The notes under the pieces were generated by a model, which was not told where the DNA came from, searched no databases, and saw only the letters and a program-made list of their open reading frames with translations. DNA of 24,605 nucleotides from a virus. A program made the position numbers and the translations under genes. Of this stretch, positions 5,729 through 11,315 are shown in pieces (within the stretch, counting starts at the first letter, position 1; every line of letters begins with the position of its first letter). Where the stretch lies: positions 1-24,605 of the IMG/VR virus record IMGVR_UViG_3300020465_000093. One strand, given 5' to 3'.

Positions 5729-5938
5729 CTATGTTGATTTAATGTCAACGTACATGCAAGAGTGTGCCTCGCTATGAACGGTATATCCAAACTCTTGGAA
5801 TGTTTTTACCATGCCCTTGGCTTTTTGTTCTGCCTGTATAACGCACTGTTCTTCTGTTGCGTAAAATTTGACCGGTTCTTCCTCAAACATGGTGCAAGGG
5901 TTACCTAATGTACAGATTACTACTAAAACTTTCCACAT
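5729..5938 (-). CDS. Small exported Cys-containing protein, paralogue of 7122-7334
   Basis: This 69-residue protein starts MWKVLVVICTL, a short hydrophobic stretch after one lysine that resembles a signal peptide or N-terminal anchor. Four cysteines follow the pattern of the 70-residue protein encoded 1.2 kb away on the opposite strand: both begin MWK, have Cys at residue 9, an (E/Q)C..QA helix near residue 32, a G-M...F segment and a C-terminal Cys. The pair are diverged duplicates on either side of the tmRNA. Paired cysteines and the leader suggest an envelope or periplasmic location with disulfides. Function is unknown; superinfection exclusion or lysis accessory roles are conceivable but unsupported. 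Confidence 0.7.
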   Translation of the reverse strand: MWKVLVVICTLGNPCTMFEEEPVKFYATEEQCVIQAEQKAKGMVKTFQEFGYTVHSEAHSCMYVDIKST

Positions 5939-6554: not shown

Positions 6555-6758
6555 CTAACGTCCTATCTTTTTCTTTCTACCTAGTGGTATTTTTTGATCT
6601 TTGACGAAAAGCTCTCCACCCTTCGTCATCCATTCGATAGTTATCATCTTGGACTTAGAATTGCCCTGAAATGACTTCACGGCCTTCTTGAAAGACATCG
6701 CCTCGACTTCCTTGGTCTCTGCTCCGTCTGTGATTTTGAATATTCTATTTTTTGGCAT
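6555..6758 (-). CDS. Small basic hypothetical protein, 67 residues
   Basis: ATG at 6758 (MPKNRIFKI) is used rather than the further upstream in-frame codon, which falls inside the promoter. The product is very basic, ends PLGRKKKIGR, and looks like one small beta-rich domain (KITDGAETKEVEA, MITIEWMTKGGELFV). It is the first gene after a consensus promoter at 6766-6793, so probably early and abundant. No family is recognised; size and charge fit a nucleic-acid or host-protein binding factor. Confidence 0.65.
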   Translation of the reverse strand: MPKNRIFKITDGAETKEVEAMSFKKAVKSFQGNSKSKMITIEWMTKGGELFVKDQKIPLGRKKKIGR

Positions 6759-6765
6759 ATTCTTA

Positions 6766-6793
6766 ATTATACACAATATTGACAAAAGGTCAA
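6766..6793 (-). promoter_or_regulatory. Sigma70 promoter, minus strand, back-to-back with the tmRNA promoter
   Basis: TTGACC (6793-6788), 16-base spacer, TATAAT (6771-6766). The -10 context is the same GTGTATAATTAAGA as at 3105. Its -35 box forms an inverted repeat (TTGAC-N5-GTCAA) with the -35 box of the plus-strand promoter at 6779. Confidence 0.75.
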
Positions 6794-6807
6794 CTCTAAG
6801 GTATAAT
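6779..6807 (+). promoter_or_regulatory. Perfect consensus sigma70 promoter of the tmRNA
   Basis: TTGACA (6779-6784), a 17-base spacer and TATAAT (6802-6807) on the plus strand match the consensus at both boxes with the optimal spacing. Transcription would start near 6814, just before the acceptor piece of the tmRNA. Confidence 0.85.
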
Positions 6808-6813
6808 TACTTT

Positions 6814-7113
6814 TGTAAATGTTGATCAAGATGAAATAAACATTTCGGACGTGGGGGCAGTACCCACCACCTCCACCAATATTGGTGGCTTATGTAATCC
6901 CTTCCGGGGGTGAACTAGTTTCGACGGGTGTGTAAAGATCTTGGGAGTTTGCGGTGATGGCACTGACCTAAACAGGCCGTTTTTAAATGCAAACAAAAGA
7001 GCATTAGGTTTTGCTGACCTAACATTATTGTTACCAAGCAAAACTGAATTGAGATTAGCGGCGTAATAACCAATGATTTCAGGGGTCTGGCCCGCCTTGC
7101 AACAGAAAGGGCC
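6814..7113 (+). ncRNA. ssrA: Circularly permuted two-piece tmRNA
   Basis: tmRNA rescues stalled ribosomes by acting first as alanyl-tRNA, then as a message for a degradation tag. Here the order is permuted. The acceptor piece comes first: T-arm GTGGG-GGCAGTA-CCCAC (6851-6867), acceptor strand CACCTCC (6868-6874) and ACCA ending at 6878. After a 27-base spacer the coding piece begins GGGGGTG (6906-6912), which pairs over 7 bp with CACCTCC (one G-U). AACTAGTTTCGACGGG follows, the hallmark tmRNA D-domain. ATCTTG (6938-6943) can pair with CAAGAT (6827-6832) as helix P2. The resume codon is GCA at 6989; the tag starts ANKRALGFAD and ends TELRLAA at 7063, before TAATAA. The stop codons lie in a helix (7023-7034 with 7063-7075), as usual. 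A GGCCC/GGGCC hairpin closes it near 7113. The exact 5' and 3' ends are estimates. Confidence 0.9.
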
Positions 7114-7121
7114 GTAAAATT

Positions 7122-7334
7122 ATGTGGAAATTATTTGCAATAATCTGTGTCCTAGTCAATGGTGAACTCCAATGCACCAACTACGACGACAGTGAAAAAC
7201 AGGTATTCAAGTCATTACAGGAGTGTGATGCCCAGGCCTCATACAGGTTTTACGGAATGGCAGAGATATTTGATGCGTACAATATCCCATATGACCAAAT
7301 GGAAGTTGGTTGTAAACAAGAGGAAGACTCTTAA
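7122..7334 (+). CDS. Small exported Cys-containing protein, paralogue of 5729-5938
   Basis: ATG at 7122 lies nine bases after the last tmRNA hairpin, so the gene is probably read through from the tmRNA promoter. The 70-residue product begins MWKLFAIICVLVNG, a signal-peptide or anchor-like stretch. It then carries cysteines and a LQECDAQAS-x-GMAEIF block matching its opposite-strand paralogue (EEQCVIQAE-x-GMVKTF). The C-terminus is acidic and contains a final GC. An AAGG overlaps the tmRNA hairpin 13 bases upstream, which could link translation to RNA processing. The function is unknown. Its stop codon shares a TTAA with the stop of the converging methyltransferase gene. Confidence 0.7.
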   Translation: MWKLFAIICVLVNGELQCTNYDDSEKQVFKSLQECDAQASYRFYGMAEIFDAYNIPYDQMEVGCKQEEDS

Positions 7335-10214: not shown

Positions 10215-11315
10215 TTATAACTTAAATTTGCTGAATTGTCCTTTTTTGACGTCTTGCTTGATACCACCAACGATGTATGATTCTACTTCAGTCTCCTGCG
10301 GTGCCACCTGCATACCTTTTGAACTTAACCAGTGTTGTGTCCATGGCAATGGATTCTGTGATGCTGACACATCGTATAATGGATCAAAACCAAGTGCTTT
10401 TAATCTTTTGTTTGCGATCCATTCTACATAATTTCCTAACAATTTTTCATTAAGTCCTATTATAGATCCATCCTTGAACAAGTATCTTGCCCAAGCCTTT
10501 TCTTCTTCAACACAGTCTTTAAACATCTGGATGACAGTTTTTTCTGTGCCCTTAATTGCTTTTGTCATTTCAGCATCGTCACCCTTGTGCCATGCTTTCA
10601 AAACGTGTGTTGATAAGTTCAAGTGTGTTGCTTCGTCCCTTGCAATCAACGAAAGTATTTTTGCAGACCCTTCCATAAGTTTCAGTTCACCAAATGCGAA
10701 TGTACAAGCAAACGATACATAAAAACGTAAACCTTCTAATAAATTAACAGTGTTCATTGCAAGGTATAATTGCTTTTTGAGTTCAATCATGTCAACTTTT
10801 TTGCCAACTTGGTAATCTAACGCCATTCTGCCAAACTTATCATATTCTGCTGTCACACTTTTTGCTCTCTTTAAAATTTCTTTGTCATTTAGTATGGTGT
10901 CAAACACCTCCGAAGGATTAGCGTAAACATTTTTCATTATGTGTGTGTAGGATCTCGAGTGAATAGTTTCAAAAAAGTCCCAGGTAACGATACAACCTTC
11001 TAGTTCTGGATTGGAAACATATGGTAGGAACATTAGGCTTGGACCTCTGCCTTGCACACTGTCTAGTAGTGTTTGATACTTGAGGTTACTTGTGAATATG
11101 TGTTTTTGTTCAGGTCTAAAGTTTTGGAAGTCTGCTCTGTCCTTCTGCAGAGATACCTCTTCTGGTCTCCAAAAGTAACCAATCATAGTTTGATTAAGTT
11201 TGTCAAACTGTGGATACTTGAATTCGTCGTATCTCTGTATGCCACCGTCCTCACCAAAGAACATAGGCTGTTTAGTGAAGTCAACTTTCTCCTGGTTAAA
11301 AACTGTTTTCGTCAT
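10215..11315 (-). CDS. nrdB: Class Ia ribonucleotide reductase, small (beta) subunit
   Basis: The 366-residue protein carries the diiron-tyrosyl radical cofactor that starts nucleotide reduction. All cofactor residues are present: D85, E116, H119, the radical Y123 (ETIHSRSYTHI), E194, E228 and H231 (ARDEATH). The FFWRPEEV-like and HIFTSNLKYQTLLDS blocks are close to Escherichia coli NrdB, so this is class Ia. The C-terminus FSKFKL fits the tail that docks on NrdA. The gene lies 15 bases after nrdA in the same direction, giving the order nrdA-nrdB. The product reduces NDPs to dNDPs for phage DNA synthesis. Confidence 0.97.
   Translation of the reverse strand: MTKTVFNQEKVDFTKQPMFFGEDGGIQRYDEFKYPQFDKLNQTMIGYFWRPEEVSLQKDRADFQNFRPEQKHIFTSNLKYQTLLDSVQGRGPSLMFLPYVSNPELEGCIVTWDFFETIHSRSYTHIMKNVYANPSEVFDTILNDKEILKRAKSVTAEYDKFGRMALDYQVGKKVDMIELKKQLYLAMNTVNLLEGLRFYVSFACTFAFGELKLMEGSAKILSLIARDEATHLNLSTHVLKAWHKGDDAEMTKAIKGTEKTVIQMFKDCVEEEKAWARYLFKDGSIIGLNEKLLGNYVEWIANKRLKALGFDPLYDVSASQNPLPWTQHWLSSKGMQVAPQETEVESYIVGGIKQDVKKGQFSKFKL

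Follow-up and report, generated by a model that had tools for sequence, protein, structure and literature searches.

The window (i.e., the whole stretch of DNA analyzed here, an IMG/VR virus record of 24,605 bases) carries a permuted two-piece tmRNA gene at positions 6775-7116 (+), detected by covariance-model matches to the Rfam families RF04321 (tmRNA_permuted; 116.1 bits, cut-off 47, E value 2e-22) and RF01849 (alpha_tmRNA; 109.8 bits, cut-off 50, E value 2e-29). ARAGORN likewise called a permuted tmRNA, at 6783-7157. The tmRNA gene and its neighboring features are as follows.

6555-6758 (-): 67-aa protein with a basic tail, divergently transcribed; a conserved neighbor of class-A tmRNAs (defined below)
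6766-6793 (-): divergent promoter, TTGACC-16-TATAAT, 11 of 12 consensus positions; dyad TTGAC-N5-GTCAA in common with the tmRNA promoter
6779-6807 (+): sigma-70-type promoter, TTGACA-17-TATAAT, 12 of 12 consensus positions; ends just before the tmRNA gene
6815-6878 (+): acceptor piece, with the P2 5' strands, a T-arm with loop GGCAGTA, the 3' acceptor strand CACCTCC, and ACCA
6879-6905 (+): intervening sequence, expected to be removed
6906-7116 (+): coding piece, with the 5' acceptor strand GGGGGTG, TTCGACGG, the P2 3' strands, the tag, and the conserved CCTTGCAACAGAA
6989-7069 (+): tag reading frame, ANKRALGFADLTLLLPSKTELRLAA (ARAGORN), with a coding signature in relatives
7122-7334 (+): open reading frame for a 70-aa protein, directly after the tmRNA on the same strand, with homologs in relatives
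10215-11315 (-): NrdB, which served for tag-independent recruitment of relatives

An earlier note on this DNA had read positions 6814-7113 as a circularly permuted two-piece tmRNA of alphaproteobacterial type encoded by a phage and had named covariance models as the check. The Rfam and ARAGORN matches bear out this reading, both models scoring far over their cut-offs, and every sequence element that it named (T-arm, CACCTCC, ACCA, acceptor stem, and tag frame) was located in the window. Its end is close to the model end at 7116, whereas its start misses the promoter. The T-stem GTGGG/CCCAC lies at 6851-6855/6863-6867 and encloses the loop GGCAGTA (6856-6862), which is near the alphaproteobacterial consensus GGCgGUA of the Rfam alignment; the 3' acceptor strand (6868-6874) and ACCA (6875-6878) follow. 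The 5' acceptor strand occupies 6906-6912, and TTCGACGG begins at 6920. The acceptor half is thus upstream of the coding half, with the intervening sequence between them, which is the permuted layout. All seven pairs of the acceptor stem form, including G3-U70 (alanine identity), and A73 and CCA are present; a G-U at acceptor pair 3 was found in 96 of the 97 phage permuted tmRNAs extracted. The tag codons (GCA to GCG) span 6989-7063, and the stops TAATAA occupy 7064-7069. Removal of the intervening sequence would be expected from known permuted tmRNAs. In the predicted precursor (fold of 19 sequences), this sequence can pair with both acceptor strands, forming hairpins that hide CCA and the 5' strand, and the alternative precursor fold was found in most class-A relatives.

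The structure named in the earlier note (28 pairs) was examined in an alignment of 19 related phage sequences. Pairing was kept in 96.1% of cells, compared with 73% in shuffles, and fell to 36 to 48% when the partner strand was slid (48% for a one-base slide). Changes on both sides occurred in 19 of the 28 pairs, with 111 double-change cells versus 36 in shuffles, and covariation was detected in all five helices of the tRNA-like domain plus P2, including the helices that join the two pieces. The earlier note had also raised the risk of a chimera joining host DNA to phage DNA. This was ruled out because the same gene order (NrdA, NrdB, PAAR, tail protein, tmRNA, 67-aa protein, p94, and p367) recurs in many independent contigs; these come from different samples, and the orientation of the tmRNA varies among them.

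TTGAC precedes the tmRNA in all 78 long-tag relatives examined. Divergent from the promoter dyad, the 67-aa protein has an invariant GR and a basic KKK tail, and 41 homologs occur among the fetched loci. Its AlphaFold model has a beta-beta-alpha-beta-beta fold (pLDDT, 87) for which no PDB match was found, the best viral match being an uncharacterized protein; it could be an RNA-binding or adaptor partner. Homologs of the 70-aa protein also adjoin class-B tmRNAs, and the proteins at 7122-7334 (+) and 5729-5938 (-) are both small and have similar N termini (MWK...IC). The glutamine riboswitch that follows the tmRNA of phage Melnitz was not found in the window with Rfam.

The earlier note missed the unusual tag, which we rank as the most interesting part of the locus. 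In relatives recruited without reference to the tag (by an acceptor pattern or by NrdB homology), tags are 22 to 25 residues long and fall into two main classes. Class A, which includes the window, follows A[NK]x[KR]-ALGFADLTV-linker-LRLAA; the window tag has 25 residues, starting with ANKRALGF and ending with LRLAA before TAATAA. Class B reads ANAFKPEVTVP[VM]S[VIT]FAD[AQ]ELVAA, of which ARAGORN sometimes gives the last 8 residues only, and a few contigs carry a class C tag (ANKRFVSEVKIPSNFVVGRELLAA). The LAA or VAA ends are kept across these three long-tag classes. Codon changes were mapped on a tree built from the flanks; because the tag search patterns fix many core positions, this analysis was limited to loci recruited by the acceptor pattern or NrdB. 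Core codons 5 to 13 of class A showed 20 synonymous changes versus 1 nonsynonymous change (binomial P = 6e-11 against the neutral expectation), linker codons 14 to 18 showed 3 synonymous versus 20 nonsynonymous changes, and the RLAA codons changed only synonymously. As read from these sequences, the class-A core peptide is under strong purifying selection at the amino acid level, and the adjacent linker appears free to drift. Two trivial accounts of the conservation were rejected, namely, a search artifact, since the codon signal holds in tag-independent loci, and the end of a longer open reading frame, since every sequence tested has an in-frame upstream stop and there is no conserved start, an in-frame start codon being missing in about half of the sequences tested.

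The same data bear on two readings in which the peptide itself would be immaterial. One is that the tag region is kept for an RNA hairpin in the coding piece. RNAalifold does predict hairpins across the tag, but the pairs are mostly invariant or changed on one side, with very few double changes; in addition, variation is concentrated at third codon positions, strongly so in the tag only (the flanks have no comparable bias), and the second positions of the core are invariant. We therefore regard this reading as very improbable. The other is a decoy, in which the phage tmRNA would titrate host SmpB or compete with host tmRNA, as proposed for the tRNA-like RNA of mycobacteriophage DS6A. A phage RNA consisting of the tRNA-like domain alone does inhibit tmRNA (PMC4131195, PMC11915505); a pure decoy would have no need of a reading frame, yet the tag is conserved at the codon level, and this reading is the least credible of those considered here.

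The tags of cellular genomes look different. In a class-wide sample of alphaproteobacteria, 70 of the 76 readable tags had 10 to 15 residues, mostly with an ANDN start; SAR11 tags mostly have 9 residues, and those of the order of metagenome-assembled genome (MAG) MED657 have 10. The window tag falls outside this host type (9 to 15 residues, ANDN-like start). Tag length alone is not unique, as the remaining 6 of the 76 sampled tags have 21 to 32 residues, with unrelated sequences. These long-tag alphaproteobacterial genomes (L340, L356, L362, L363, L365, and L379) include tags such as ANSNVANGNSVGATGGFAAFAPANGNFAAVAA, with repeated ANGN-like units. Four other viral contigs (L011, L012, L048, and L017) have permuted tmRNAs with 29-residue tags of unrelated sequence (e.g., AKKSTTFASILPVKVERVSLVQEALAASA). 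The class-A motif was found in cellular genomes only in three stretches, all in MAG contigs of phage character: one (L231) has the full phage gene order, one (L229) carries phage-type genes, and one (L230) has the same base count (46,675) as an IMG/VR viral contig. No tblastn match to the tag was found in named phages, with a 22-aa query of low power. Patterns resembling LGFADL or FKPEV, looked for in open reading frames of >60 aa from the fetched loci, matched only the tags themselves.

In a rapidly built tree of the tRNA-like domain, of modest resolution (124 rows, 153 columns), every class-A and class-B sequence fell within a split made up solely of phages; SAR11, the MED657 order, other alphaproteobacteria, and some other phages grouped with one another. 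The long-tag phage tmRNAs lie outside all the sampled cellular alphaproteobacteria, and any capture must therefore be old. The captured host system of the earlier note suggests a recent event; recent capture, including from SAR11, is unsupported by the tree. The sequence tree thus argues for the long-tag tmRNA being an old phage gene. Three loci (L066, L069, and L115) have tRNA-like domains ~50% identical, and tags 88 to 100% identical, to their best match of the other type, from which it appears that the tRNA-like body was swapped and the tag retained. Additional partial matches to tmRNA occur in many SAR11 genomes, frequently within a few kilobases of the real gene (G068:C7, G043:C7, G066:C8, and L240 900-925), and resemble scars of elements integrating at tmRNA genes.

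Several known tmRNAs invite comparison. The tmRNA database lists 79 sequences from bacteriophages (PMC11915505), and 53 two-piece forms were reported among 133 unique tmRNA structures from 402 tmRNA-bearing phages in the study that described the permuted tmRNA of Methylophilales phage Melnitz (Buchholz 2022, PMC9004378). Like the window, Melnitz is marine and has a single-copy permuted ssrA of alphaproteobacterial type with T-loop GGCAGTA and an upstream promoter; unlike the window, it has an ordinary tag (ANDNYVPVDYALAA), the glutamine riboswitch, and a T4-like genome with gp23. Pelagibacter phages HTVC008M and Mosig share with the window a permuted alpha-type tmRNA and related NrdA and NrdB; they differ from class A in their ordinary tags of 9 to 10 residues, and neither ClpX nor ClpA was found in their complete genomes. 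The tmRNA of SAR11 hosts is also permuted and belongs to RF01849, but it has 9-residue tags (e.g., ANDKFALAA), an intervening sequence of 11 to 13 bases, and a separate branch in the tree. Since Melnitz has been published and HTVC008M and Mosig carry one each, a bare permuted phage tmRNA is not new; the long tag of the phage clade, unlike the bare tmRNA, appears new.

The earlier note had called the genome T4-like. This holds for the ribonucleotide reductase, which is near those of T4-like pelagiphages and cyanophages (window NrdA is nearest to Pelagibacter phage Mosig and cyanophages, at ~69%), but not for other markers. In G001, a 172-kb class-A relative, DNA polymerase, ClpX, and ClpA are nearest to those of jumbo phages of alphaproteobacteria; Phosso and Atu_ph07 rank first or close to first. 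A virion-type protein of the window matches Phosso only. No gp23 (PF07068) was recognized in clade contigs of 64 to 172 kb, which are possibly incomplete, whereas three isolates score 484 to 508 bits. The Sinorhizobium jumbo phages Phosso and AP-J-162, although from a soil-bacterium host, resemble class A in being alphaproteobacterial jumbo phages with tmRNA and ClpX, and the Phosso tmRNA lies two genes from a PAAR gene, the window tmRNA likewise being near PAAR. From the polymerase, ClpX, and ClpA affinities, the Phosso-only match, the PAAR proximity, and the lack of a detected gp23, we infer through its relatives that the window is probably part of the genome of a marine jumbo-type phage and not of a standard T4-like one. 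The permuted tmRNA of Phosso is unannotated (L574, 348934-351365) and missed by ARAGORN; its intervening sequence is long (roughly 400 bases), and reading by hand gives an ordinary tag, ANDNVSTKVALAA. The MAG bins give an indirect indication of the host: a "Rickettsiales" MAG contains two class-A contigs, and a Pelagibacter MAG contains one. G001 (L491-L499) also encodes SufB, a TonB-dependent receptor, a CHASE2-cyclase, and a purine permease.

Eleven class-A contigs extend far enough on the p367 side, and each of them encodes ClpX, 13 to 22 kb from the tmRNA. The G001 protein matches PF06689 (zf-C4_ClpX) and scores 500 bits (cut-off 371) with TIGR00382 (NCBIfam). All 11 aligned proteins have intact Walker motifs, pore-1 GYVG, RKH, and the ClpP-binding [LIVM]GF loop (observed as [IM]GF). 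The phage ClpX also has the residues with which ClpX is known to grip ssrA tags (pore-1 GYVG, pore-2, and RKH; PMC7652416). Class-A ClpX proteins are 66 to 94% identical to one another among the comparisons listed and ~46 to 51% identical to ClpX of one SAR11 genome and of the MED657 MAG. As the window reaches only ~6.8 kb from the tmRNA on the p367 side, ClpX in its own phage is inferred from these relatives and is probable. ClpA was found in one class-A genome and one class-B genome; the latter, the single large class-B contig (148 kb), has ClpA with no ClpX found. SmpB was not found in 10 phage records and is present in both MAGs that hold such phage contigs. No SspB homolog was found in the phages or SAR11 genomes tested. 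ClpP was dropped as a partner gene, occurring in 1 of 28 class-A contigs and being widespread in other marine viral contigs. ClpX and ClpA have been reported in jumbo phages (PMC7824862), and AP-J-162 has a tmRNA plus ClpX (PMC11242549); in the open-access literature, no paper came up that connects the tag of a phage tmRNA with an unfoldase encoded by a phage.

The gene, its promoter, the conserved fold, the selection on tag codons, and, in relatives, an intact ClpX linked to the tmRNA together suggest the following course of events, to which we assign a probability of roughly 0.6. The tmRNA would be expressed early in infection from its promoter in a marine jumbo-type alphaproteobacterial phage; host RNases would process the transcript into two paired pieces; and host AlaRS would charge it with alanine through G3-U70. 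Together with host SmpB, the phage tmRNA would free ribosomes stalled during infection and append the long tag peculiar to the phage, which ends in the ClpX signal LAA, and the phage's own ClpX would then unfold the tagged fragments for degradation by host ClpP. If the gene is expressed, ribosome rescue is very likely, and rescue could outweigh proteolysis in its value to the phage. A further step, in which phage ClpX would prefer the phage tag, so that stalled products are recycled under phage control in a private pathway, is a tentative proposal that we consider rather doubtful. The main argument for caution on a ClpX preference for the class-A core is Phosso, which combines ClpX and ClpA with a permuted tmRNA whose tag is of the ordinary ANDN type; a phage ClpX therefore needs no special tag. 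The LAA end should be readable by host ClpX too.

Phosso and the retained LAA or VAA ends of classes A, B, and C also favor a plainer reading, in which the tmRNA supplies extra rescue capacity, as phage tRNAs do for translation, the products go to host ClpXP via LAA, and the long core is a minor quirk of the lineage. The isolated pelagimyophages, with their ordinary tags and no ClpX, fit this reading as well. However, the core is under strong purifying selection beside a free linker and persists through replacement of the tRNA-like domain, and an inconsequential quirk would not be so tightly held; we consider this reading unlikely, if still worth weighing. The extended tag might instead direct products to another protease or adaptor (Lon, ClpAP, or a phage adaptor such as the 67-aa protein) or evade host SspB. 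Mesoplasma florum offers a precedent, with a long ssrA tag whose extra recognition region is read by Lon. Class-A tags also do not begin with ANDN, as alphaproteobacterial tags typically do, ClpA occurs in one class-A genome and one class-B genome, and the 67-aa protein is a conserved neighbor. However, the Mesoplasma tag lacks the LAA end, whereas the window tag keeps a ClpX-type end, which points to ClpX; the failure to detect SspB and the absence of a recognizable PDB fold match for the 67-aa protein also count against such redirection, which we judge improbable.

To our knowledge, there is no consensus on what phage tmRNAs do, years after they were first described. Selection in this clade holds the tag fixed rather than the tRNA-like body, and the phage tmRNA tag and the ClpX of relatives suggest a virus-owned tag-and-destroy pathway. 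The association of a phage ClpX with a tag that is restricted to phages and conserved at the codon level would give phage tmRNAs a concrete role, as part of a viral route for protein tagging and degradation. If true, this would be a natural case of a tag and an unfoldase evolving away from the host pair, and the tag might be of use as an orthogonal degron.
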